Assembly (NCBI GenBank): GCA_900318915.1
Contig: ONMI01000034.1
Coordinates: 1-50,437, forward strand
Source: an uncultured Prevotellaceae bacterium
Lineage (GTDB): Bacteria > Bacteroidota > Bacteroidia > Bacteroidales > Bacteroidaceae
Reading direction: 5' to 3'
DNA length: 50,437 nt
The notes beneath the pieces are model-generated. The model searched no databases. It worked only from the letters and a program-made list of their open reading frames with translations, and was not told the DNA's origin. The number at the start of each line of letters is the position of its first letter. Positions within the stretch are counted from its first letter, which is position 1. Positions 18,683 to 46,792 of the stretch are shown in pieces. The translations under genes and the position numbers were made by a program.

Positions 18683-21061
18683 TTAATGGCAGATGACTAC
18701 TTTTTCCGTGGCCGACCCGGTGTCATCCATCCCGTGTACGGCATAGATTCCAGATTCCCAACCCGCCGTGCTGACAGTGTATGTGGCGGATTTAACGTTC
18801 TCAACCCTCTTGACTTCTCCTGTCTGGGTGTTGACTATCTTGAGACGCCATTCGGTGTTGGCAATTGCCCCTCCGGATTCCTCATCAGAGATGCCGTCAG
18901 CATCTTGACAGGTCCTGTACAGAGTGACTGAAAGAGTTCTATTTGAGGTTCGCCCCACATGCAGGCCCAAAAGTGCTGGCTGATGGAAAGGTGAACTGTT
19001 GAGGTTTACAGTTTGAAGAAATGGTATATAGTTGTGCCTAAGAATTGTCACCTTGCACACGCCGGACATGCCGGCGAACGATGCGCTTGACACGTTCTCC
19101 GCGACTTGTATGGTACCATCGGAATTGACGGCCACTATTCGGCAACTGTCAACGGTTGATGTGACATTTATGGTACCGCTGCTTGAGAAACTCACAGCAG
19201 GAATAATCACACTTGAGTGAAAAGGAATCAAGAAGGAATGCGGGGTGTCGGTGAAAATCCGCATTTCAGGGTCACCCATGGCGTTCATGGAGCACTGAAG
19301 GCTGGTATAATTATTACCCATCTGGCAATCGTCCGCCATGACACGCTTGACTTGTGCAGCGACCCCTCCGAAACTGTATGGGGCGTCATACGGATGCCCT
19401 CTGAACAGGTTTTCGAAGAATCCGGCATTGTATCTGAAGCTGAAGTCAAATTCGGTACTGGACTCAATTTTGTTTCTCGAGTTCCCGAAATAAGCAGCAG
19501 CCCCCCCGTCCGGATTCAGCAGCAGGCTAGTGGCCAGGCAGTCCGTATGGTCGAAGGCGTTGGTGAAGCCGGCATTGCTTACGAAGACAGAGGGGAACGT
19601 GTTGCCCTGGGTCTGCGCCTCTTGGGTGCTGTACCTGAATCCCAGGTTTCCATCAATCAGCCATCTGTCATCTTCCCCATCCGCACAGACATGAATCAGG
19701 TTGTATCCTCTGTTTATTTCAGACTCCAGCGAGCCGTTTCCCTGCCAGCCGCTGCCGGCGGGAAGGTTTGAGCCGGTGTCGTACAGATAGTATGCCGGAC
19801 CACTCCAGTGGGGCTGTATGTGTCCTGTGTAGATGGAATCGTTGTATTCCTGAGGGTCTATGCCATCATAGGGCATATAGGCTCCTGTCATGAGCATCCG
19901 CCCCGCCGCCTCTATGTCAGTCACATCACGCTCATAGCGCAGCACCTTTTCCGTGAAGTTCATTATGTCCTCGGCGTTGCGTGCCGGAACCCTTGACACA
20001 TAAACTTCTGGGCTGTAGTCAATGTTGGGATCCTGGAGCCAGTAGTTGAGGCCACAGTTCGGAATCCAGTTGTAGCTGCCCCTGAAACATGCGTAAAAAA
20101 GGTCGGCTGGTGTAAGGCGGCTGTTCTCGCCGAATGCGAAGAAATACCTTGTCGGTACGATGGAAACATCTCCACCGAGCAACACGAACCTTGTTCCGTG
20201 GTTCACCATGCAGTCCTCAATGAACATCTTTATTCTCAATGGATTGTCCATGGTCATCCCTTCGATGACGCTTTGTGGATATTGCAGATATATCTCCTCA
20301 AGCGTGGCCACCCTTGTATGCAGACCTTTCCGGTTTTTCCATTCCATCAGATTCTGAAAACAGTCGGTGAGGCTGTCTCTTGTGATGATGAGGTAGTCAA
20401 CCGGGTCTTCATTCACCACGTTCGCCTCCCGCAGTGGATAGAGGTCCCCGAAATCATCAGGGTTGGCCAGGGTGCTGCGGAAATCCATAATCTCATCTGG
20501 CAGGCTTTCATGTGCCGTCCCTCCTTCAGCCTTTTCCATCTCCGGAAAGGTGATGGCCAGTCTTGGTATGAAATTTAGGTCTTTTGTCTCCGGGTCTTGA
20601 ACAAACGGAGAGACGGCAAGGCATCTGTATCTGTACTCACGATAGTGCATGATGCCTCGGTCGGTGACGGGAGAAGTAATCGCAGACATTGGTGCTTCTG
20701 GCAATCCGAGTGCCTTTTCAACATTCTCGCACCATCCTGCCTTGCCGATGGACACCTCCTTTCGAATCAGCACCTTCTCGTATTCTACGGAGAAGTCCTC
20801 TTTCTCGGTTCCTGGCGGAATCAGAAACCTCAGGGTGTGTATGGGCGTTGCGGCCCTGTCCGTGTGTGCCCATCCTTCTTTTGATGTCTCAATAGAGACG
20901 GCCTCCATTTCAGCCATAATATTAAAGTCTTCCAATGAGAACTTGTACTCAAAGGTTCTCTGAGCGGATGTGTGGGCAGCAAACAGGTATGACAGGAGGA
21001 AAAGGCTAAGAAGCCTCTGTCTTAAATGTCCAATGGTATCTTTAGATTTAATAATGTTCAT
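18683..21061 (-). CDS. Gingipain-like (peptidase C25 fold) secreted protein, probably catalytically inactive
   Basis: 792 residues. Signal peptide to about TSA|Q (residue 33-34), a C25 propeptide-like N-terminus, then the C25 fold: DYLIITRDSL (222-231), WKNRKGLHTRVATLEEIY, RFVLLGGDVSIVPTRYF (about 291-307), VYVSRVPARNAEDI (353-366). Where active members have a His-Gly (GHG) the sequence reads NLIHVCADGED (Asp461), and where the catalytic Cys is expected it reads FVSNAGFTNAFD (Gly498). Both catalytic residues therefore seem replaced. A beta-rich C-terminal region ends GWESGIYAVHG, a T9SS-like end. It may be a binding or scaffold protein. The alignment was made by eye. It is followed after 25 nt by the tailed protein at 17815. 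Confidence 0.8.
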   Translation of the reverse strand: MNIIKSKDTIGHLRQRLLSLFLLSYLFAAHTSAQRTFEYKFSLEDFNIMAEMEAVSIETSKEGWAHTDRAATPIHTLRFLIPPGTEKEDFSVEYEKVLIRKEVSIGKAGWCENVEKALGLPEAPMSAITSPVTDRGIMHYREYRYRCLAVSPFVQDPETKDLNFIPRLAITFPEMEKAEGGTAHESLPDEIMDFRSTLANPDDFGDLYPLREANVVNEDPVDYLIITRDSLTDCFQNLMEWKNRKGLHTRVATLEEIYLQYPQSVIEGMTMDNPLRIKMFIEDCMVNHGTRFVLLGGDVSIVPTRYFFAFGENSRLTPADLFYACFRGSYNWIPNCGLNYWLQDPNIDYSPEVYVSRVPARNAEDIMNFTEKVLRYERDVTDIEAAGRMLMTGAYMPYDGIDPQEYNDSIYTGHIQPHWSGPAYYLYDTGSNLPAGSGWQGNGSLESEINRGYNLIHVCADGEDDRWLIDGNLGFRYSTQEAQTQGNTFPSVFVSNAGFTNAFDHTDCLATSLLLNPDGGAAAYFGNSRNKIESSTEFDFSFRYNAGFFENLFRGHPYDAPYSFGGVAAQVKRVMADDCQMGNNYTSLQCSMNAMGDPEMRIFTDTPHSFLIPFHSSVIIPAVSFSSSGTINVTSTVDSCRIVAVNSDGTIQVAENVSSASFAGMSGVCKVTILRHNYIPFLQTVNLNSSPFHQPALLGLHVGRTSNRTLSVTLYRTCQDADGISDEESGGAIANTEWRLKIVNTQTGEVKRVENVKSATYTVSTAGWESGIYAVHGMDDTGSATEKVVICH

Positions 21062-24550: not shown

Positions 24551-25762
24551 TTACCTCTCCAACCCTTCTGTTAAGAACCTCCTGAGATGCAGATGGGTTA
24601 TGCCATTGTCATCAGACTTGGTAACCAATGGTGTCATGGAGATGACATATTTGGGATAGTTGTCCTTGATGGCACGGAGGTTGCCGAACTCACGCTCATA
24701 TGTATTATCGTCGACTATAATATAAGACGCCTGCACATATATCCTTTCTCCTTTCGGCTTTGTGCAGACAAAATCAATCTCGCCTGCATGAAGTTGTCCG
24801 ACCTTCACCTCATACCCCAGGCGTATAAGATGATTGTAGATGATATTCTCTATCACCTTCTCAATGTCTCTCTCGCGTGAACCACCTACAAGAGCATTAC
24901 GAATGCCGTTGTCCTCAAAATAGAATTTATCGTTGCTCTCAAAAATCTTTCTTCCGTGTATGTCATACCGACTCACTTTATGAATCATGTATGATTCGCA
25001 AAGATATTTGGCATAATTGATAATAGCAGTGGAGGTAATGTTTCCCCCCTGCGACCGCATATACTTTGCAATGCTGTTGGCCGAAATTATTTTCCCTGCA
25101 TTGTCGGCAAGGAAATGCACAAGGTTTTCCAGAAAAGGCACATTGCGGATATTGTTCCGCCGGATGACATCCTTCAGCAGGACGGCGTTATAGACATCTG
25201 TCTGGTACTCCCTTGCATCCTGTTCGTCGAGTCCGATCTTTTTCAAGCCAGGCAATCCGCCAAACTGGATGTACTTGGCCAACGTATCATCACTGTCGGG
25301 CAACTCGTGAAACTCCATGAATTCCCTGTAGCTTAATGCCTGGACAAAGATTTCTTTGTAGCGGCCACCTATCTTGTTGGCCAAATCGCCACTGAGCATG
25401 TTGGAGTTTGAGCCCGTTACGACGATTTCAATATCGGGCTCCTCATAGTAACTGCGAATGCTGTTCTCAAAGCCTTCTATATCCTGAACTTCATCTATCA
25501 AGATGTAGTTGGTCTTTGTTTTGTCTCGCCGTTCATCAATATAGGCATTCAAGTCGCGGTCAGTCTTGATGTTGCCAAACTCATGTTTTTCTTTGTCAAT
25601 GAAGATAATGTTTGCGTGAACATCTTCTGCCACTTTATCCCTAAAGAGGCGCAGGGTGTAACTCTTCCCAACCCTTCGCTGGCCGACGATGATAATGATG
25701 GTGTCCTTACCAAGATACTTCGCAATCTTGTCAAGATAACGATGCCTAACTATTGCCTTCAT
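24551..25762 (-). CDS. Stand-alone AAA ATPase with C-terminal DUF4143-type domain
   Basis: 403 residues from ATG 25762 (MKAIVRHRYLDKIAKYL). An in-frame TTG at 25789 was rejected because it lies in the -7 box. Walker A GQRRVGKSYTL near residue 28, Walker B YILIDEVQDIEGFE, sensor region EIVVTGSNSNMLSGDLA, then an arginine-rich region and a C-terminal DUF4143-like nuclease-fold domain with GEIDFVCTKPKGERIYVQASY (E-D-x6-Q pattern). Such solo ATPases occur in many copies in Bacteroidales and archaea; their role is not settled. The gene has its own promoter, has replaced a tailed gene, and is A+T-richer than its neighbours, which suggests acquisition. Confidence 0.88.
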   Translation of the reverse strand: MKAIVRHRYLDKIAKYLGKDTIIIIVGQRRVGKSYTLRLFRDKVAEDVHANIIFIDKEKHEFGNIKTDRDLNAYIDERRDKTKTNYILIDEVQDIEGFENSIRSYYEEPDIEIVVTGSNSNMLSGDLANKIGGRYKEIFVQALSYREFMEFHELPDSDDTLAKYIQFGGLPGLKKIGLDEQDAREYQTDVYNAVLLKDVIRRNNIRNVPFLENLVHFLADNAGKIISANSIAKYMRSQGGNITSTAIINYAKYLCESYMIHKVSRYDIHGRKIFESNDKFYFEDNGIRNALVGGSRERDIEKVIENIIYNHLIRLGYEVKVGQLHAGEIDFVCTKPKGERIYVQASYIIVDDNTYEREFGNLRAIKDNYPKYVISMTPLVTKSDDNGITHLHLRRFLTEGLER

Positions 25763-25786
25763 TCCTTTTGTAGATGAAATTTGCCG

Positions 25787-25821
25787 CAAAGATAACGATT
25801 TTATCTTTTATAAAAGACAAA
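25787..25821 (-). promoter_or_regulatory. ATPase promoter with an operator-like palindrome
   Basis: Reverse strand TATCTTTG at 25787-25794 is an exact -7 box, about 25 nt before the ATG. A CAAA (TTTG on the reverse strand) at 25818-25821 is a looser -33 match, 23 nt away. Between them lies a perfect 14-bp palindrome, TCTTTTATAAAAGA (25804-25817); part of it recurs at about 25852 as GTCTTTTATAA. Placement over the promoter suggests an operator. Confidence 0.6.
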
Positions 25822-25979
25822 AGTTTTGTTTTTTTATACTTTGTCTTTTATAATTCTCCTTTTATTCACCAGTATTACATGTGATGTGCCCTAAAAATAT
25901 GATAAAAATCGATTACAAGGCCTTATATTTGAAATCCCAAATAGTTGTCTTATGATAGTGGAAAAAGCGAACAAATGCT

Positions 25980-26007: not shown

Positions 26008-26544
26008 ATGAAAATAGGTGTTTTTTGTTCTGCCAACAGCAGTATAGACCAAGATTTTTTTACCTTGACCGATGAATTGGGCCGCTGGATGGGCCGGGAG
26101 GGCCACACGCTGGTGTATGGCGGCTGCAACATGGGACTGATGGAATGTGTGGCCAAAGCGGTGCATGAGACGGGCGGCACGGTGATAGGCGTGATACCCC
26201 GCCTGCTGGAGCAGGGCGGCCGGCTCTCGCAGTATATCGACGTGCAGATACCGTGCGACAATCTGAGCGACCGCAAGGACCTGATGCTGGCCCAGGCCGA
26301 TGCCTTTGTGGTGTTGCCCGGCGGTATAGGCACACTCGATGAACTCTTCACGCTGGCAGCCTCGGCCACCCTGGGCTACCACGGCAAACCGCTTGTGGTG
26401 TACGATATGAAAGGCTTCTGGCAGCCATTGTTGCGGCTGCTCGAGACACTCGAGGCGCAAGGCCTGGTAAGAGGCCGCTTTGCCAACTATATCAAGACCG
26501 CCCGCACCCATGACGAGGTGGTGCGGCTTCTGGAGCAAATGTAA
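26008..26544 (+). CDS. LOG-family (TIGR00730) nucleotide phosphoribohydrolase
   Basis: 178 residues from ATG 26008 (MKIGVFCSANSS); an upstream in-frame ATG at 25945 would place the start before the -7 box and add no conserved sequence. The signature LPGGIGTLDELF (PGGxGTxxE) and GGCNMGLMECVA mark the lysine-decarboxylase-like Rossmann fold that cleaves nucleoside 5'-monophosphates to base and ribose-5-phosphate, known in plants as cytokinin activation; in bacteria a purine-nucleotide salvage or clearing role is likely. Its last 39 nt are repeated at 28121-28159, on the far side of the second ATPase insert, so its stop codon has been rebuilt (TAA here, TGA in the distal copy). Confidence 0.9.
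   Translation: MKIGVFCSANSSIDQDFFTLTDELGRWMGREGHTLVYGGCNMGLMECVAKAVHETGGTVIGVIPRLLEQGGRLSQYIDVQIPCDNLSDRKDLMLAQADAFVVLPGGIGTLDELFTLAASATLGYHGKPLVVYDMKGFWQPLLRLLETLEAQGLVRGRFANYIKTARTHDEVVRLLEQM
26504..26542 (+). repeat. 39-bp direct repeat, left copy (end of LOG gene)
   Basis: From GCACCCATGACGAGG to GGAGCAAATGT, identical over all 39 positions to 28121-28159. It is the coding end of the LOG gene up to the first base of the stop codon. Confidence 0.95.
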
Positions 26545-26557
26545 AAACGAGGAAAGA

Positions 26558-27988
26558 CTAATCCAATCTGAAAAGGTCATCCATCACAACCTCACTCTGT
26601 GCTATGCCTGAATGGATTCCACGTAGTACGCCATAGGTGGTTACCATCGTCGTTACTAGACTTTTGGATGTCTTGGTGTCTGCTTTGAATATTGCCATCC
26701 TATTGCGTAGTTTTTCTTCGTAGTCCTTGGTGATAGTATATGGCCCTCCTGAGAACTTCATCTCGCAGAGGTTGATGATTCTATCTGCACGGTCAATTAC
26801 CAGGTCTATCTGCGCTCCTTTGTCTGTACTGTTGCCAAGTTTCCTCCAGTTACTTGTTGTTGTGGATATTCCGCTGATGCCCAGCTTTTGCTTGATTTGT
26901 TCGAGGTGTATCATACAGATAGTCTCAAAGCTAAATCCTTGCCACGATACCACCGAATGAGAGTGCATGTTATTCGTCCACCAGTGTTCGTCCTTCGTGT
27001 TTTTATTGTGTAAGAACTTGAAATAGAATAGTGTGTATGGGTCATTGATTCTGTACAGGGTGTTGCGGACAGACGAGTTGAAGCGTGAATAGGTATCTAT
27101 GAAATCGCAACGTTTAAGGTTTTCCATAATTTTTGTCAGACTTCCTCCAGACATCTTGGTTTTTTCCATTATTTCAGAACGGAGTAGACCTTCCCGACTC
27201 CCTGCGAGGGCATTAACTACACATATATATTTATCTGCCTGATTGAATAATGCGTTGAACAACTCATCAAACTCCTCACGCATCGGAGCGTTCTTGGCGA
27301 AGAAAAGTCTGTCGATATTCTGAGCGAGACTTTGCTCTGGGTTCAGCAGGTTCATGTAATAAGGCACCCCCCCCATAGCCATATGGCACTGAAGAATTGT
27401 GTATCTGTCCCACATGCACCCATTGTCATGCAGATATTTTTCACACTCACCCAAACGGAATGGCCGTAGGTATATCTGCTCTGTGATGCGGTTATGCAGG
27501 CCACCCTGGTTCTTAACAAGTTTGTTGACCATCCAAGAAGTTGCCGAACCGCAAGCAATAAACATGATGTCGTCTCGCTGCGCTGCCCATGCGTTCCAAA
27601 AATACTCCAGTGCTTCCACAAAAGAACTTTTCGGAGTATCTATCCAAGGCATCTCATCGAAAAAAATCACCTTGCGTTTGTTTCTTGGTTTGCGTTCTAT
27701 CAAAGTGCGCAGTTCGTTGAATGCCTCTTCCCAATTGTTGAGGGCTGGTGCATATGGAGAGTCACTGAACAACTTCAGTTGCATGGCGAATCGTGCGAGT
27801 TGTTTTTCTTGCTTCTGTCTCCTGGCTCCAACAAATGAAAAAGTAAACCTATCGGCAAAAACATTGTTCACCAAAAAGGTTTTGCCAATACGGCGACGGC
27901 CATATACGATTACCAACTCCGACTTCCCTGAACGGTATTTCCGTTCTAAAGTCTCAATCTCATGAGTTCGTGCAATGATTCTGCTCAT
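26558..27988 (-). CDS. Stand-alone ATPase, ATPase_2/DUF234-type
   Basis: 476 residues. Walker A VYGRRRIGKTFLVNN near residue 28-42, Walker B KVIFFDEMPWIDTP about 107-120, sensor-like FIACGSATSWMVNKLV, a winged-helix region (SEIMEKTKMSGGSLTKIMENL), and a C-terminal nuclease-like domain with GAQIDLVIDRADRIINLCEMKF, showing the E/D-x-E-x-K arrangement of DUF234 proteins. It belongs to the same broad class as the ATPase at 24551 but to a different branch. It is read towards LOG and is the only gene of the insert. Function of the family is not established; possible roles in element maintenance or defence are speculation. Confidence 0.85.
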   Translation of the reverse strand: MSRIIARTHEIETLERKYRSGKSELVIVYGRRRIGKTFLVNNVFADRFTFSFVGARRQKQEKQLARFAMQLKLFSDSPYAPALNNWEEAFNELRTLIERKPRNKRKVIFFDEMPWIDTPKSSFVEALEYFWNAWAAQRDDIMFIACGSATSWMVNKLVKNQGGLHNRITEQIYLRPFRLGECEKYLHDNGCMWDRYTILQCHMAMGGVPYYMNLLNPEQSLAQNIDRLFFAKNAPMREEFDELFNALFNQADKYICVVNALAGSREGLLRSEIMEKTKMSGGSLTKIMENLKRCDFIDTYSRFNSSVRNTLYRINDPYTLFYFKFLHNKNTKDEHWWTNNMHSHSVVSWQGFSFETICMIHLEQIKQKLGISGISTTTSNWRKLGNSTDKGAQIDLVIDRADRIINLCEMKFSGGPYTITKDYEEKLRNRMAIFKADTKTSKSLVTTMVTTYGVLRGIHSGIAQSEVVMDDLFRLD

Positions 27989-28011
27989 ATTCCTATTTCA
28001 TTTATCTGCGG

Positions 28012-28066
28012 CGAAGATACCAAAAAAGTTCGATGTGGGCAAATTTAGGTAAATTTATTTTGCCCA
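28012..28066 (-). promoter_or_regulatory. Control region of the inserted ATPase
   Basis: Reverse strand TATCTTCG (28012-28019) differs from the -7 consensus by one base and lies 24 nt before the ATG at 27988. Inverted repeat TGGGCAAA (28036-28043) / TTTGCCCA (28059-28066) lies over the -33 region; a related TGGGTAAA follows near 28090. This looks like an operator. Confidence 0.5.
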
Positions 28067-28120
28067 TAACTATAGAAAATCTTGAGTTGTGGGTAAAAGT
28101 GGAGCAATGGTCTGCAAATT

Positions 28121-28159
28121 GCACCCATGACGAGGTGGTGCGGCTTCTGGAGCAAATGT
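28121..28159 (+). repeat. 39-bp direct repeat, right copy
   Basis: Exact copy of 26504-26542, preceded by unrelated A+T-rich sequence and followed by GA, which would complete a TGA stop for LOG. It is not part of any gene now. Confidence 0.95.
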
Positions 28160-28172
28160 GAAGCAGAAGAGG

Positions 28173-29267
28173 CTACCGCCTGCCGCCCATGAGCAGGTAG
28201 GTGATAAAGGGCAGATGCTTACGCATCAGTTTGTAGAGCACCAGTCCCACCACTACGAGGATGATAACGGTGAGCAGGTAGTAGACGATGGCCAGCACAT
28301 CGTTGTAAGGCTTGAGCAGCCCGCTCTGGAAGAGCGGCATGAGCAGTCCGAGCAGCAGTGAGTGGTAGGCGAAGATGAAGAAGCTGGCATTGCTCAGCGT
28401 CATGTTCACATACCAGGTGCCGGAGCGCACCATATTGGTGGTGAGCGACATGCCGAACACCAGGCCAATGACATACTCCACACGATAGAGGAAGTCGGAG
28501 GCCCAGAACTGCTCGAGCACGATGAGCAGCACAAGGCAGATGGCCGCCGGTATCATGTAGGGCATCATGGCCACGATAAATTCCTTCTTCTTGATGCTGT
28601 AGTAGGCGCCGAAACCGAAGAAGAGCCAGCAGTCGGGGTTGAGCCCCACGATGTCGGGCCAGTAGTTGAAGGCGAAGATGATGGCCAGAAAAAGGAGCCA
28701 TCTCACGATAGGCCGTTTGCCACCCAACTTGATGAAGGCGTTGACCAGGAGGTAGACAAGGGGTGAGAAGAGCATCACAATCATCAGGTCGCGTATGAAC
28801 CAAAACTGAATGGCCACGGGCGCCTTGATGCTTCCGTCGCCATTGATGGCGCCTATGTTCCAGAAAGCCATGAGCCAGTCGGTGAACGCCATGTCGCCCG
28901 CTGCCTTGTGTATCACGGGGCGGTTGGCGAGGAAGAGGCCCGCCACGAGCACAATGATGAGATAGAGCAGGTTCCACAGCATGTAAGGCACGAAGAGCGA
29001 CTGGAACCGCCTGATGAGCTTCTTGATGTAGAGATTGATGGAGAAGGCGCCCGACTTGAAGAAGAGATAGCCCGCAATGAAGAAGAAGAAAGGATTGGCG
29101 ATGGGGGCTATGCGCTGGGATATGACGTCGATGACACCGCTGGCCACAGCCAAGTTGGCCCACTCATCGCTGATGGTTCGGTAGTTGCAGTGACTGAACA
29201 GAACCATCACGATGAGCGGGAACCGGATGAATGCGATAACCTTTGACTGAAGGTCGGTGGGTTTCAT
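28173..29267 (-). CDS. Acyltransferase-3-family integral membrane protein
   Basis: 364 residues from ATG 29267; a GTG two codons upstream is less likely. About ten hydrophobic segments. Family features include RFPLIVMVLFSHCNY at the N-terminus (the usual His-containing first segment), FFFFIAGYLFFK, an Arg/Lys loop (YIKKLIRRFQSLFVPYMLW), and QFWFIRDLMIVMLFSPLVY. Members transfer acyl groups to sugars or other exported molecules in the inner membrane. It is the last gene of the PfkB-FprA operon, 19 nt after FprA. The acceptor is unknown. Confidence 0.88.
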   Translation of the reverse strand: MKPTDLQSKVIAFIRFPLIVMVLFSHCNYRTISDEWANLAVASGVIDVISQRIAPIANPFFFFIAGYLFFKSGAFSINLYIKKLIRRFQSLFVPYMLWNLLYLIIVLVAGLFLANRPVIHKAAGDMAFTDWLMAFWNIGAINGDGSIKAPVAIQFWFIRDLMIVMLFSPLVYLLVNAFIKLGGKRPIVRWLLFLAIIFAFNYWPDIVGLNPDCWLFFGFGAYYSIKKKEFIVAMMPYMIPAAICLVLLIVLEQFWASDFLYRVEYVIGLVFGMSLTTNMVRSGTWYVNMTLSNASFFIFAYHSLLLGLLMPLFQSGLLKPYNDVLAIVYYLLTVIILVVVGLVLYKLMRKHLPFITYLLMGGRR

Positions 29268-29286
29268 CGGCACACAATAATGATTT

Positions 29287-33012: not shown

Positions 33013-34380
33013 ATGAAAAAGCTATTACTCACAGTCAGCATCCTGCTCTCTCCGGGCATGTTCGCGGTGGCACAAGAGGGCCAGCCGTCTCTCCAGTCCA
33101 TCTACCAGCAGTTTGCCTTCACTTTGTATGATAAGGTGATGGAAGAGAGTGTCGACAACAATATCTTCTCACCCCTCTCGGCCCAGATAGCCCTCTCCAT
33201 GGCGCAGAACGGCGCCGCCGGCAATACCCTCGCACAGATGCAGGAGGCACTCGGCACCACCGGCTACACTACTGAGCAGGTGAACGACTACAACAAGAAT
33301 CTTACGGCTGAAATCACCTATCGGCCTCCCTTCGATTACGATGCAGCCAGTAAGGAAGACCGTGATGCCTACGACACCTCCAATCCCAAGTGCGAATTGT
33401 CCAACGGACTATGGAGCCAATATGGATTCCCGCTGTACGACAGCTACCGGCTGCTGCTCGAGGACCAATACCAGGCTGCCACCGGCGAGGTCGACTTTGG
33501 CTCGCAGGAGGGGATAAACGAGATAAACCAGTGGGTGGACGAGAAGACCCACCACCTGATACCCTCTATCCTGGACAGTCCCAATCCCTTCATTACCATG
33601 CTGCTTGCCAATGCCCTCTACTTTAAAGGCTCATGGACCTATGCCTTTGACGAGATGGGCACCACCAAGAACGACTTCCGCTTGACTGACGGCAGCAGCA
33701 TCGAGGTAGACATGATGAATCAGCGTGAAGTGTTTTCAACCGCCACCACCGACCAGTTTCGCACAGTAACCTTGCCTTATGGCACGGGCTCCTTCTCTAT
33801 GACCATCTTCCTGCCCTTTACCGACGAGCTGCCCGCCCTGACCTGTGATGCCTGGCTCGCCGCCATGAACACCTCTTCACCCAAATATGTGGCACTGCAC
33901 CTGCCGAAGTTTGAGATAGAAGGATCGCATTCGCTCAATGATGCCCTGCAGGCGTTGGGCATGACAGAGGCTTTCGCTGGCAATGCAGATTTCAGCCTGA
34001 TGAGTTCTGTTGCACTTTCCCTTGACCGAATTATGCAGTGTGCCAAGATTATCGTCGACGAAGAGGGCACCGAAGCTGCTGCCGTCACCTTTATGGACTG
34101 GAGCTCGGGTACGGGTGAAGACCCCGATGTGCAGGTGGATTTCATGGTAGACCATCCTTTCTATTTCACCATTGAGCACCAACCCACCAAGACCCTTCTC
34201 TTCATGGGCCGTATGTGCCAGAGCAAGGGACTGGCCGCCTCGCCCGACGCCATCGCCGCTCCTACTGCCACACCGCGAACCTCCACCCCTGGCCTCTACG
34301 ACCTGAGCGGACGACGGCTGCCCGCAGCTCCGCAGCGGGGTATCTATATACAGGACGGAAAGAAACGGGCCGCCCACTGA
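33013..34380 (+). CDS. Secreted serpin (serine/cysteine protease inhibitor) with C-terminal tail
   Basis: 455 residues. Signal peptide cut AVA|Q (after residue 20). Serpin signatures: NIFSPLSAQIALSMAQNGA (50-68), ITMLLANALYFKGSW (194-208), and the reactive-loop hinge VDEEGTEAAAVT (348-359), whose short side chains allow loop insertion, so it should be inhibitory. The loop runs to about residue 375 and is followed by DHPFYFTIEHQPTKTLLFMGR. The last 30 residues (GLYDLSGRRLPAAP, GIYIQDGKK) are a T9SS-like tail shared with the protein at 35833. Bacterial serpins occur in gut bacteria and blunt host or rival proteases. First gene of a three-gene operon. Confidence 0.93.
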   Translation: MKKLLLTVSILLSPGMFAVAQEGQPSLQSIYQQFAFTLYDKVMEESVDNNIFSPLSAQIALSMAQNGAAGNTLAQMQEALGTTGYTTEQVNDYNKNLTAEITYRPPFDYDAASKEDRDAYDTSNPKCELSNGLWSQYGFPLYDSYRLLLEDQYQAATGEVDFGSQEGINEINQWVDEKTHHLIPSILDSPNPFITMLLANALYFKGSWTYAFDEMGTTKNDFRLTDGSSIEVDMMNQREVFSTATTDQFRTVTLPYGTGSFSMTIFLPFTDELPALTCDAWLAAMNTSSPKYVALHLPKFEIEGSHSLNDALQALGMTEAFAGNADFSLMSSVALSLDRIMQCAKIIVDEEGTEAAAVTFMDWSSGTGEDPDVQVDFMVDHPFYFTIEHQPTKTLLFMGRMCQSKGLAASPDAIAAPTATPRTSTPGLYDLSGRRLPAAPQRGIYIQDGKKRAAH

Positions 34381-44316: not shown

Positions 44317-45294
44317 TTACTTGCGTACGGCCTTCTTGCGTGCGGTGGCAGAGCCGCCCGTCTTGCCGGGCTTGGCTTCAGGCTGAGCGGTGGTGGCTTT
44401 GGCCTCCTGTGCGGGTATCACCTTCTCCAGTTCCACCTGGAAGATAAGGGTGGAGTAGGGGGGTATCTGTCCGGCGGGGCGGTTGCCGTAGGCCAGCTCC
44501 TGCGGTATGTAGAGTTCCCACATGCTGCCCTCGGGCATCATGGTGAGCGCCTCTGTCCATCCTTTTATCACCTGGGTGGGCTTGAACTTGTTGGTCTGCT
44601 CCTTGCGTTTGTACGAGCTGTCGAAGACGGTGCCGTCGAGGAGGCGGCCCTCATACTTCACCACCACCTCGTCGTTGGCGGTGGCCACGGCACCGTTGCC
44701 CTGGCGCAGCACCCTGTACTGCAGTCCGCTGGGCAGTGTCACCACGCCCGGCTTGGTGCTGTTCTCGGTCAGGAAGTTGCGGCCTTCGGCCTTGCGGGCC
44801 TCCGTCTCACGCTCCTTGCACTGGTCAATGTATTGGTCGGCGCTGTTCATGGTGAGCACCGAGGTGTCTTTCTTCAGCGCATCGAGGAATCCTCTGAAGA
44901 AGAGTTCGTTGTTGATGCTGTCGGCCACGCCCTGGAGCTGTTTTTTGGCGGCCGGAATCATGCGCTGTTCCACCATGTTGGCTATGCTGATGCCGGCACC
45001 GTAGGCGGTGAGGCTCTTCTTGCGCACCTGGTCCATGGTGTCTTCGAATCCGCGGATGAAGTCGACCATATAGGCGGTGTCTACGTTGAGTTGCTGCGAG
45101 AGATAAGGGATGAGTCCGTTGGTGGTGTTGATACCGAGGGCGTAGCTCACCGAGTCGACCCCGTTGCTCAGCACCACGGGCTGTTTCACCTCTACGTTCT
45201 CCTTTTTCTTCTTCTTGTCTTTTTTGTCGGCTGCCTGTAGAGCAGTCGCACCCGCCAGGACGGCGAGTGCGAGGATAAGAGCTTTCTTCATCAT
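44317..45294 (-). CDS. Exported FKBP-type prolyl isomerase with long basic tails
   Basis: 325 residues. Signal peptide to about LQA|A (residue 22), then a Lys-rich stretch (DKKDKKKKKE). Dimerisation-type N-terminal domain (VDSVSYALGINTTNGL, about 46-165), then an FKBP domain (about 190-292: TLPSGLQYRVLRQGNG, VVVKYEGRLLDGTVFDSSY, GWTEALTMMPEGSMWELYIP, AYGNRPAG, STLIFQVELEKV), as in FkpA/Mip. A Pro/Ala/Thr/Lys-rich C-terminal tail of about 30 residues ends ARKKAVRK. It should assist folding in the periplasm. Last of three tandem FKBP genes, 3 nt after the second. Confidence 0.93.
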   Translation of the reverse strand: MMKKALILALAVLAGATALQAADKKDKKKKKENVEVKQPVVLSNGVDSVSYALGINTTNGLIPYLSQQLNVDTAYMVDFIRGFEDTMDQVRKKSLTAYGAGISIANMVEQRMIPAAKKQLQGVADSINNELFFRGFLDALKKDTSVLTMNSADQYIDQCKERETEARKAEGRNFLTENSTKPGVVTLPSGLQYRVLRQGNGAVATANDEVVVKYEGRLLDGTVFDSSYKRKEQTNKFKPTQVIKGWTEALTMMPEGSMWELYIPQELAYGNRPAGQIPPYSTLIFQVELEKVIPAQEAKATTAQPEAKPGKTGGSATARKKAVRK

Positions 45295-45297
45295 GGC

Positions 45298-46152
45298 TTA
45301 TTTTTCGATGGAGAGGAGTTTCACTTTGAAGATAAGGGTGGAGAAGGGTTTGATCTGACCCATGTCGCGCTCACCGTAAGCCTTCTCGGCGGGGATGTAA
45401 ACTTCCCACTCCGAACCCACGGGCATGTGGGTGAGAGCCTCGGCGAAGCCGGGGATGTTCTGGCGTACTACGCACTCCATGGGCTGTCCGCGCTTGATGG
45501 AGCTGTCGAATACTTTGCCGTCGATGGTCTTGCCCTCATAGTCGACCTTCACTTTCGAGGAGTCGGTGGGCAGGGCGCCGTTGCCTTCGGAGAGCACTTT
45601 GTACTGCACGCCGCTGGGCAGGGTCTTCACACCGGGCTTCTTGGCGTTGTCGGCCAGGAACTTGGCGTTTTTCTCCTTCACCTCCTTATAGCGCTCGCCC
45701 ACGATGCGCGTGTGCACTCTGTCGGCCAGGCTCTCAATGCTGTTCATGGCCACCTCTGAGGTCATAATCTTGTCGTTTTTCTTCACACCGTCTATCAGAC
45801 CGGCCACCAGGTTCTTCTGCGACACATGGTGGATGCTGTCGCCGGCAAAGATCTGGTTGTTGATGCTCGAAGCCATGCCGGCACCGGCCTGCAGACCGGC
45901 CACGTAGGCAGCCTTCTTCTTGTCGCCTGCACTGGCAGAGCCTTCCTTGAAACCTCTCACGAAGTCGGCTATGTAGGCAGAGTCGATGCCCTGCTGAGCC
46001 AGGTAGTTGGTCATCTGTGCACCGTTGGCCTTGCCGATGGCATAGCTCAGGGTGTCGACATCAGTTTTCAGAGAGGCCGTGGGGTTGTTGCCGCATGAGA
46101 AGAATGTGGCGCCGGCCATTGCCATTACGGCATAGATAGCTAATTTTTTCAT
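45298..46152 (-). CDS. FKBP-type prolyl isomerase lipoprotein
   Basis: 284 residues. Lipobox TFFSC (Cys20) then GNNPTASLKTD. N-terminal dimerisation domain (VDTLSYAIGKANGAQM, about 34-150) and FKBP domain (about 175-284: TLPSGVQYKVLSEGNG, VDYEGKTIDGKVFDSS, ALTHMPVGSEWEVYIP, AYGERDMG, STLIFKVKLLSIEK). Membrane-anchored periplasmic chaperone/isomerase. Middle gene of the trio, sharing the same layout and clearly a paralogue. Confidence 0.93.
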   Translation of the reverse strand: MKKLAIYAVMAMAGATFFSCGNNPTASLKTDVDTLSYAIGKANGAQMTNYLAQQGIDSAYIADFVRGFKEGSASAGDKKKAAYVAGLQAGAGMASSINNQIFAGDSIHHVSQKNLVAGLIDGVKKNDKIMTSEVAMNSIESLADRVHTRIVGERYKEVKEKNAKFLADNAKKPGVKTLPSGVQYKVLSEGNGALPTDSSKVKVDYEGKTIDGKVFDSSIKRGQPMECVVRQNIPGFAEALTHMPVGSEWEVYIPAEKAYGERDMGQIKPFSTLIFKVKLLSIEK

Positions 46153-46186
46153 TTGTTTACTTGTTGTTTTATCGTTTTGTTTGACT

Positions 46187-46792
46187 TTATTTCACTTCCA
46201 GTAGCTCCACGTCGAAGATGAGTGTGGCAAACGGAGGAATCATGTTGCCGGCACCGCCCTCGCCGTATGCCAGGCGGTAGGGGATGAAGAAGCGGTACTT
46301 GGCACCCTCCTGCATGAGCTGCAGACCCTCGGTCCAGCCGGCTATCACCTGCTGCAGACCGAAGGTGGCCGGTTCGCCGCGCTGCACGCTGCTGTCGAAC
46401 ACAGTGCCGTCGAGGAGGAAACCCTCATAATGGCACACCACCTGGTCGGTGGCCTTCGGCTTGCGGCCGTTGCCTTCCTTGATTACGGTATACTGCAGTC
46501 CGCTGGGCAGTGTCACCACGCCTTCCTTCTTGGCGTTCTCGGCCAGGTACTTCTCACCGCTCTCTTTGGCTATCTTGCCTTTGGCGGCGCGCTCGGCGTC
46601 CATGGCAGCCTGTTTCTTGCGGAAGTACTGCTCCACGATGCCCTGAGCCTCGCGGTGCGACACCTTGAGCTCGTTGCCGGCAAGCACATCCTTGATGGCC
46701 TGTGCGAATTCATCTACATTGAGGTCGCTGGCACCCATCTGGGCCAGCTGCTGTCCTATTCCTAATCCTAAAGCGTAGCTTACTTTCTCCAT
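46187..46792 (-). CDS. FKBP-type prolyl isomerase without export signal
   Basis: 201 residues, shorter than its two paralogues because it starts directly with the dimerisation domain (MEKVSYALGLGIGQQLAQM). The FKBP domain is about 95-200: TLPSGLQYTVIKEGNG, HYEGFLLDGTVFDSS, GWTEGLQLMQEGAKYRFFIP, AYGEGGAGNMIPPFATLIF. No signal peptide or lipobox, so cytoplasmic, similar to FklB. First gene of the operon, with a -7 box about 45 nt upstream, and 34 nt before the second FKBP. Confidence 0.92.
   Translation of the reverse strand: MEKVSYALGLGIGQQLAQMGASDLNVDEFAQAIKDVLAGNELKVSHREAQGIVEQYFRKKQAAMDAERAAKGKIAKESGEKYLAENAKKEGVVTLPSGLQYTVIKEGNGRKPKATDQVVCHYEGFLLDGTVFDSSVQRGEPATFGLQQVIAGWTEGLQLMQEGAKYRFFIPYRLAYGEGGAGNMIPPFATLIFDVELLEVK

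Follow-up and report, generated by a model that had tools for sequence, protein, structure and literature searches.

The DNA analysed here, a 50,437-nucleotide stretch from an uncultured Prevotellaceae bacterium of the gut (the window), probably carries at positions 26543–28120 a mobile cassette of a single gene. It would comprise a gene for an ATPase–winged helix–nuclease protein together with the gene's own palindrome-bearing promoter region, and 39 bp of the end of LOG, a housekeeping gene, would have been duplicated on its entry. Units of this kind, with their usual edges, lie at unrelated loci in different genomes, their protein is under purifying selection, and the junction is empty in relatives.

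The LOG gene (26008–26544, plus strand; Lysine_decarbox, PF03641, E 5.7e-32; TIGR00730, E 1.6e-42; GC 58.1%) has the cassette at its 3′ end. Its final codons and the T of its stop codon form the left copy of an exact 39-bp direct repeat (26504–26542, plus strand), which comparison within the window shows to be identical to the right copy (28121–28159, plus strand). The right copy is followed by the original TGA and by the native junction with an acyltransferase gene, the downstream neighbour of LOG (Acyl_transf_3; 28173–29273, minus strand; PF01757, 6.6e-18; synteny in four species). Just outside the repeat the copies disagree, C versus T before it and A versus G after it, and with equal base use about 4e-15 repeats of 39 bp would be expected by chance in 50 kb. 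Between the copies lie 1578 bp (26543–28120, minus strand), missing from the junction in four related species, in which the only long gene is that of the ATPase (26558–27988, minus strand); GC content steps from 58.1% in LOG to 43.4% in the insert and 55.4% in the acyltransferase gene. LOG ends ATG-TAA at present and ATG-TGA once the insert and one copy are removed, and the window without them has the LOG and acyltransferase stop codons 11 bp apart. The insertion left LOG whole and duplicated 39 bp of its end, just as a preliminary description of the letters had claimed for both the exact repeat around one ATPase gene and the preservation of LOG. That description would have given way had the 39-mer been an unrelated dispersed sequence; with up to three mismatches allowed, it occurs at only two places in the 3.38-Mb genome (84.9% complete, 118 contigs), namely the two copies in the window. 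The right copy is unchanged at 39 of 39 positions, so the insertion is recent, provided that this copy has drifted freely since; zero changes in 39 positions have a computed chance of 5% at a divergence of 0.077.

A DNA search of 398 genomes of the genus with the acyltransferase region as query gave 15 long matches, including its own. The acyltransferase, flavodiiron-like and sugar-kinase-like genes (the last name is our own reading) keep the same order in 11 of the 11 other loci fetched, and the ATPase is absent from the fetched stretch in all of them. LOG and the acyltransferase gene face each other tail to tail, with no ATPase between them, in four related species (L234, L235, L236 and L240), at spacings of 13 bp, 31 bp or, in two species, a 20-bp overlap, and no second LOG tail occurs there within the next 400 nt. 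At L233 and L239 LOG adjoins the acyltransferase locus in the opposite orientation, and at the remaining 5 of the 11 it lies outside the fetched piece. None of 29 other LOG loci has the ATPase beside LOG within 1.5-kb flanks. The empty junction is demonstrated through gene order, not base by base: the LOG proteins of the four empty-site species are merely about 52–62% identical to that of the window, so that a single exact 39-bp copy is unreadable from their sites. Thus, of the empty site that had been predicted, the gene order stands in four related species, whereas the single 39-bp copy is out of reach at this distance. The related genomes searched yielded no empty site that is close to the window in nucleotide identity, and a search for close relatives of another cassette site, L041, matched mostly repetitive DNA and gave no empty site.

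The ATPase (476 aa; model pLDDT 91.7) matches PADLOC family PDC-S27 over its full length (3.5e-202, residues 1–473 on profile positions 1–473 of 474), and seven of the seven further cassette proteins tested also match this family. It had been labelled a DUF234-type protein; Pfam instead yields ATPase_2 (PF01637, E 5.6e-16) and no DUF234 match at E ≤ 0.001. The fold comprises a STAND or archaeal SSO-type ATPase core with Walker motifs, then a winged helix, and a C-terminal domain of the PD-(D/E)XK nuclease superfamily, which lies outside the match to archaeal SSO-type/STAND ATPases (SSO1545, 2fna; PABY2304, 2qen). The putative catalytic residues D395, E409 and K411 are invariant in 17 of 17 sequences. 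Also invariant in 17/17 is the LF of the C-terminal DDLF ending, which in our view resembles a sliding-clamp-binding motif; by eye its codons vary, so it is probably a feature of the protein. Two matches to mobile-element proteins serve as leads only, a TnsC ATPase in a sequence search (E 0.004) and, for the C-terminal domain, the R2 retrotransposon endonuclease in Foldseek (E 4e-3); no transposase such as TnsA was among the fold matches listed for this domain, which excludes nothing. In nine pairs of ATPase loci dN/dS is 0.02–0.16, and the protein is therefore kept by purifying selection. The ATPase-nuclease is a candidate for a role in phage defence.

Just upstream of the ATPase start we read off the sequence a promoter-like element, TTTG-20 nt-TATCTTCG (28012–28043, minus strand), which we take to fit the Bacteroidetes-type promoter consensus. 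Further upstream lies an imperfect palindrome (28059–28097; 11/14 pairs by eye), and an extra half-site of it, TGTGGGCAAATTTA (28034–28047), overlaps the promoter-like −33 box. The palindrome, which the preliminary description had not mentioned, resembles those of L151–L153, the nearest relatives of the window ATPase, and has an AACTC / GAGTT core. Palindromes with perfect arms of at least 9 bp within 300 bp upstream occur at 102 of 116 ATPase genes versus 30 of 129 ordinary control genes (from 12 genomes, all of the window's genus) and 7.5% of shuffled sequences; the imperfect palindrome of the window is missed by this exact-arm test and is among its 14 misses. The arms are similar within a lineage and different between lineages. 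We suggest that the palindrome is an operator, to which the winged helix would bind and so repress the gene's own promoter.

The upstream region may also reappear behind the gene. A downstream repeat with a score of at least 20 was found at 21 of 191 loci versus 0.1% of mismatched pairs, and at 19 of these 21 (all but L001 and L221) it is the element's own upstream region. The 19 palindrome copies begin 0–18 nt past the stop codon, 14 of them direct and 5 inverted, and the right edge that they mark agrees with that obtained from locus comparison (see below); the window cassette has no such copy after its stop. One palindrome pattern was checked genome-wide and occurs at 3, 2 and 0 places in three genomes, adjoining such ATPases or their deletion remnants. 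For this palindrome, with only 2–3 places per genome, we reject the reading as a REP-like dispersed sequence. Repeats of the GGGGACAGG type, presumably REP-like, were observed at or near the cassette edges of L039, L086 and L145. Upstream of an ATPase paralog in the window's own genome (L003, contig C39), about nine tandem palindromic units (CCGCCGCAATAGG...CCTATTGTGGCG) can be seen by eye.

Copies of the unit were compared across genomes: 116 belong to the genus, and 80 lie on named contigs, the majority assigned to Bacteroidales and a few to other phyla; some hosts outside Bacteroidales are possibly misnamed through contig binning. A set of 120 genomes, all of the one genus, supplied the 116 ATPases, which were picked among the best-scoring matches listed and not at random; the 80 loci on named contigs had the best scores among at least 583. 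Matches at E 0.001 or better, some of them weak, occur in 69 of the 120 genomes, with a maximum of 13 per genome; the window's own genome has six such genes, 39–53% alike to the one in the window. In an all-against-all comparison, the 100 pairs of ATPase loci that are at least 72% alike over 1200 nt have a median left edge 112 bp upstream of the start, and in 75 of them the match ends no more than 20 nt from the stop codon. The usual edges of the unit lie roughly 85–200 bp before the start and 0–20 bp beyond the stop. The sequences of L039 and L040, which belong to different genomes, agree at 98% of positions between −142 and the stop (0) and are unrelated outside. The suggestion that these solo ATPases move as one-gene cassettes is borne out to the extent that homologous copies mostly share DNA over the gene and its control region only. 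Eleven of the 100 pairs run past the usual edges; three of them pair a contig with itself from a second collection, a fourth arises where two fetched stretches overlap, and another (L054/L075) is a larger duplication inside one genome. Pairs at least 70% alike make up 4 of 83 within-genome pairs versus 249 of 6670 among all pairs, so there is no excess; the unit spreads from genome to genome, which differs from a transposon burst. No excision or transposition event was seen. For phage carriage, one scan of viral contigs, sensitive to close relatives only, gave no relative.

Some cassettes adjoin one another. At L040, L083 and L086 two different ATPase units stand head to tail without a spacer at the stop codon, and these loci also have remnants that have lost internal parts but retain the palindrome and the ends of the gene. 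The adjacent ATPases L056 and L109 (G109:C9) have about 200 bp in common (80% alike) over the gene end and the sequence after it.

When 600 bp on each side were searched, flanking repeats with a score of at least 20 were found at 37 of 190 ATPase loci versus 5 of 129 control genes (Fisher 2e-5); the 37 divide into 20/115 and 17/75 loci, with 0.07% and 0.09% for mismatched pairs, to which the control genes are preferable as the fairer comparison, and the other 153 loci have no flanking repeat at this score. The 190 include four loci that repeat or overlap others (L109, L154, L167 and L182), which were dropped from the strict set of 184. In that set, repeats at the expected edges occur at 21 of 184 loci versus 2 of 129 controls (Fisher p 5e-4). 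A search for other ATPase copies flanked by repeats of their own surroundings, proposed at the outset, has thus found them to be commoner than in control genes. By our own sorting, 12 of the 21 strict-edge repeats resemble the element's palindrome and not the target, leaving nine that do not (L001, L053, L054, L061, L091, L095, L168, L205 and L221). The target-type repeats are 13 to 141 bp long, and their sequences are unlike each other and unlike the LOG repeat.

Apart from LOG, three of these nine were traced. L205 repeats the LOG picture: a 61-bp repeat covers the end of a gene that encodes a product with a sulfur-carrier-like GGG terminus, its copies are 93% alike and occur at two places only in the genome, and the cassette with its palindromes lies between them. 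At L168 the repeat belongs to a family of 21 matches in its genome, within which the two copies are the closest pair (98% versus 85% for the next). L061, where 119 bp of a regulator-like gene's end are repeated, was dropped as a target duplication, because its left copy has closer matches in other genomes (up to 113/119) than in its partner (108/121). Ten uninterrupted copies in other genomes of the genus show a contiguous gene end; aligned with them, L061 matches on the left up to where the left repeat ends (nine of ten) and on the right from the right repeat onwards, and 52 bp past the left repeat recur elsewhere in L316. L061 and L313–L322 represent a family of repeated regulator-like genes whose tail and terminator are conserved; the family occurs in many genomes of the genus. 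Two further repeats were set aside: that of L104 looks by eye like a common protein ending, and that of L109 is the end of the neighbouring ATPase gene. Shorter repeats lie at the same edges in L002 (17/18), L105 (15) and L005 (13), each of them singly near chance.

In the window LOG is flanked by two one-gene ATPase units (24551–25853 for the second, directly to its left). The gene on this opposite side of LOG (24551–25789, minus strand; GC 44.3%) encodes an AAA_14 + DUF4143 ATPase of PADLOC family PDC-S01 (4e-137), and a palindrome with perfect 14-bp arms lies upstream of it (25808–25853). In the DUF4143 family an upstream palindrome was found at 17 of 30 loci (12% of shuffles), flanking repeats with a score of at least 20, counted without individual inspection, occur at 7 of 30, and in several pairs the similarity goes no further than the stop codon, as in L266/L267 (86.8% from −137 to 0). 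Since this second family shows palindromes, repeats and stop-codon edges, the pattern is not confined to one family. Elsewhere the window contains a Peptidase C25 gene (gingipain family), a serpin gene and three FKBP-type isomerase genes in a row (18683–21061, 33013–34380 and 44317–46792).

A one-gene cassette with target duplication is a well-supported description of the insert at LOG. The cassette came to lie in what had been an 11-bp junction of LOG with the acyltransferase gene, and 39 bp were duplicated. Breakage would have left the target with staggered ends, or repair would have copied it, and the cassette would have been joined there; fill-in or copying of the broken target ends could then give the 39-bp duplication. 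Neither conserved ends nor a fixed target are visible at the cassette loci. Measured against DNA transposons, target duplications are present (39 bp at LOG, 61 bp at L205) with a length that is not fixed, and terminal inverted repeats could be seen at most in the palindrome copies after the stop, inverted at 5 and direct at 14 of 191 loci. The sole candidate for a cutting enzyme inside the unit is the encoded PD-(D/E)XK nuclease, which may cut the target and join the cassette, though we put this well below even odds. A fuller proposal, which we put forward as a speculation and with considerable doubt, is that PDC-S27 and also PDC-S01 are self-mobilizing one-gene elements of an undescribed kind, in which the winged-helix ATPase would recognize its own palindrome while the nuclease would cut the donor edges and nick the target between genes with a wide stagger, so that fill-in would leave long duplications of variable length. 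A repeat that spans a gene end and restores the gene, here and similarly at L205, is also what integrase att sites look like, and the preliminary description had drawn this comparison. The cassette would then be a circle that a recombinase supplied in trans integrates at an att site within the end of LOG, the 39 bp being attL and attR. We regard this as very unlikely: the target-type repeats of 13 to 141 bp have nothing in common with the LOG repeat and some of the repeats at other copies are the element's own palindrome, related cassettes occupy different places, and flanking repeats vary in sequence and length among copies, so there is no fixed attachment site. Nor is a recombinase gene present inside the cassette, which has a single ORF, or among the 34 ORFs of the window covered by the Pfam scan, which took in all but a few short ones and the kinase gene, in agreement with the earlier remark that none is present.

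Host recombination or repair would account for the locus without any part for the protein. DNA taken up from outside, or a circle bearing a piece of the LOG end, would have been built in by RecA-type or illegitimate recombination, and the edges would be what selection keeps. No conserved ends are visible by eye next to the repeats, the repeats differ greatly in length, L061 resembles recombination inside a repeated gene family and near-identical copies within genomes are not in excess, all of which this explanation accommodates. Defined ends are nevertheless suggested by recent pairs (98% to 91% identity), whose match breaks off sharply on the right at the stop codon, and by the 19 loci where a palindrome copy starts 0–18 nt past the stop. 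The DUF4143 family has the same edges, and we think the host explanation rather improbable. A local accident would require a duplication of the LOG tail to come first and the ATPase to arrive between the two copies as an independent event; it draws on the general occurrence of short local duplications and on nothing specific. The edges of the repeat fall where cassettes at other loci have theirs, and neither copy was found without the ATPase in four relatives, which makes such a coincidence scarcely credible.

We class the cassette as a PDC-S27 member by sequence and as a mobile gene cassette by behaviour; it does not fit a recombinase element with a fixed att site. In the consulted parts of PMC12988326, PDC-S27 and PDC-S01 are described as ATPases fused to PD-(D/E)XK domains and validation is pending for most PDC candidates; both families are placed among the abundant defence candidates, with horizontal transfer discussed broadly, in the parts consulted of that paper and of PMC13356809. 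The same parts of the two papers describe no one-gene mobile unit, cognate palindromes or flanking repeats for them. More generally, the literature searched, in which subscription papers are thinly covered, holds no account of one-gene mobility of these ATPases. Integron gene cassettes are alike in having one gene per unit, an attached palindrome, tandem neighbours and single-gene, defence-like cargo. Unlike in integrons, the palindrome here lies upstream over the promoter and is lineage-specific in sequence, with arms that differ between cassette lineages, the units are not at one array site, and the scanned window ORFs include no integrase. Free-standing homing endonuclease genes, like the cassette, are intergenic nuclease genes that form one-gene mobile units. 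They enter one cognate site by break repair and are not known to have flanking repeats, whereas the ATPase cassette is found at varied places with repeats. REP sequences with their RAYT transposases provide a case of a gene that has its own cognate palindromes; here, by contrast, the palindrome tested occurs 2–3 times per genome and the ATPase is no Y1 transposase.

If these defence candidates travel as bare one-gene units with a control palindrome, their patchy distribution would have a direct cause and their association with defence genes would need to be re-examined. A single gene and a single target would then suffice to test their mobility. Should the encoded nuclease be what moves them, this would be a new way for a gene to move, and the ‘defence’ gene would be its own vehicle.
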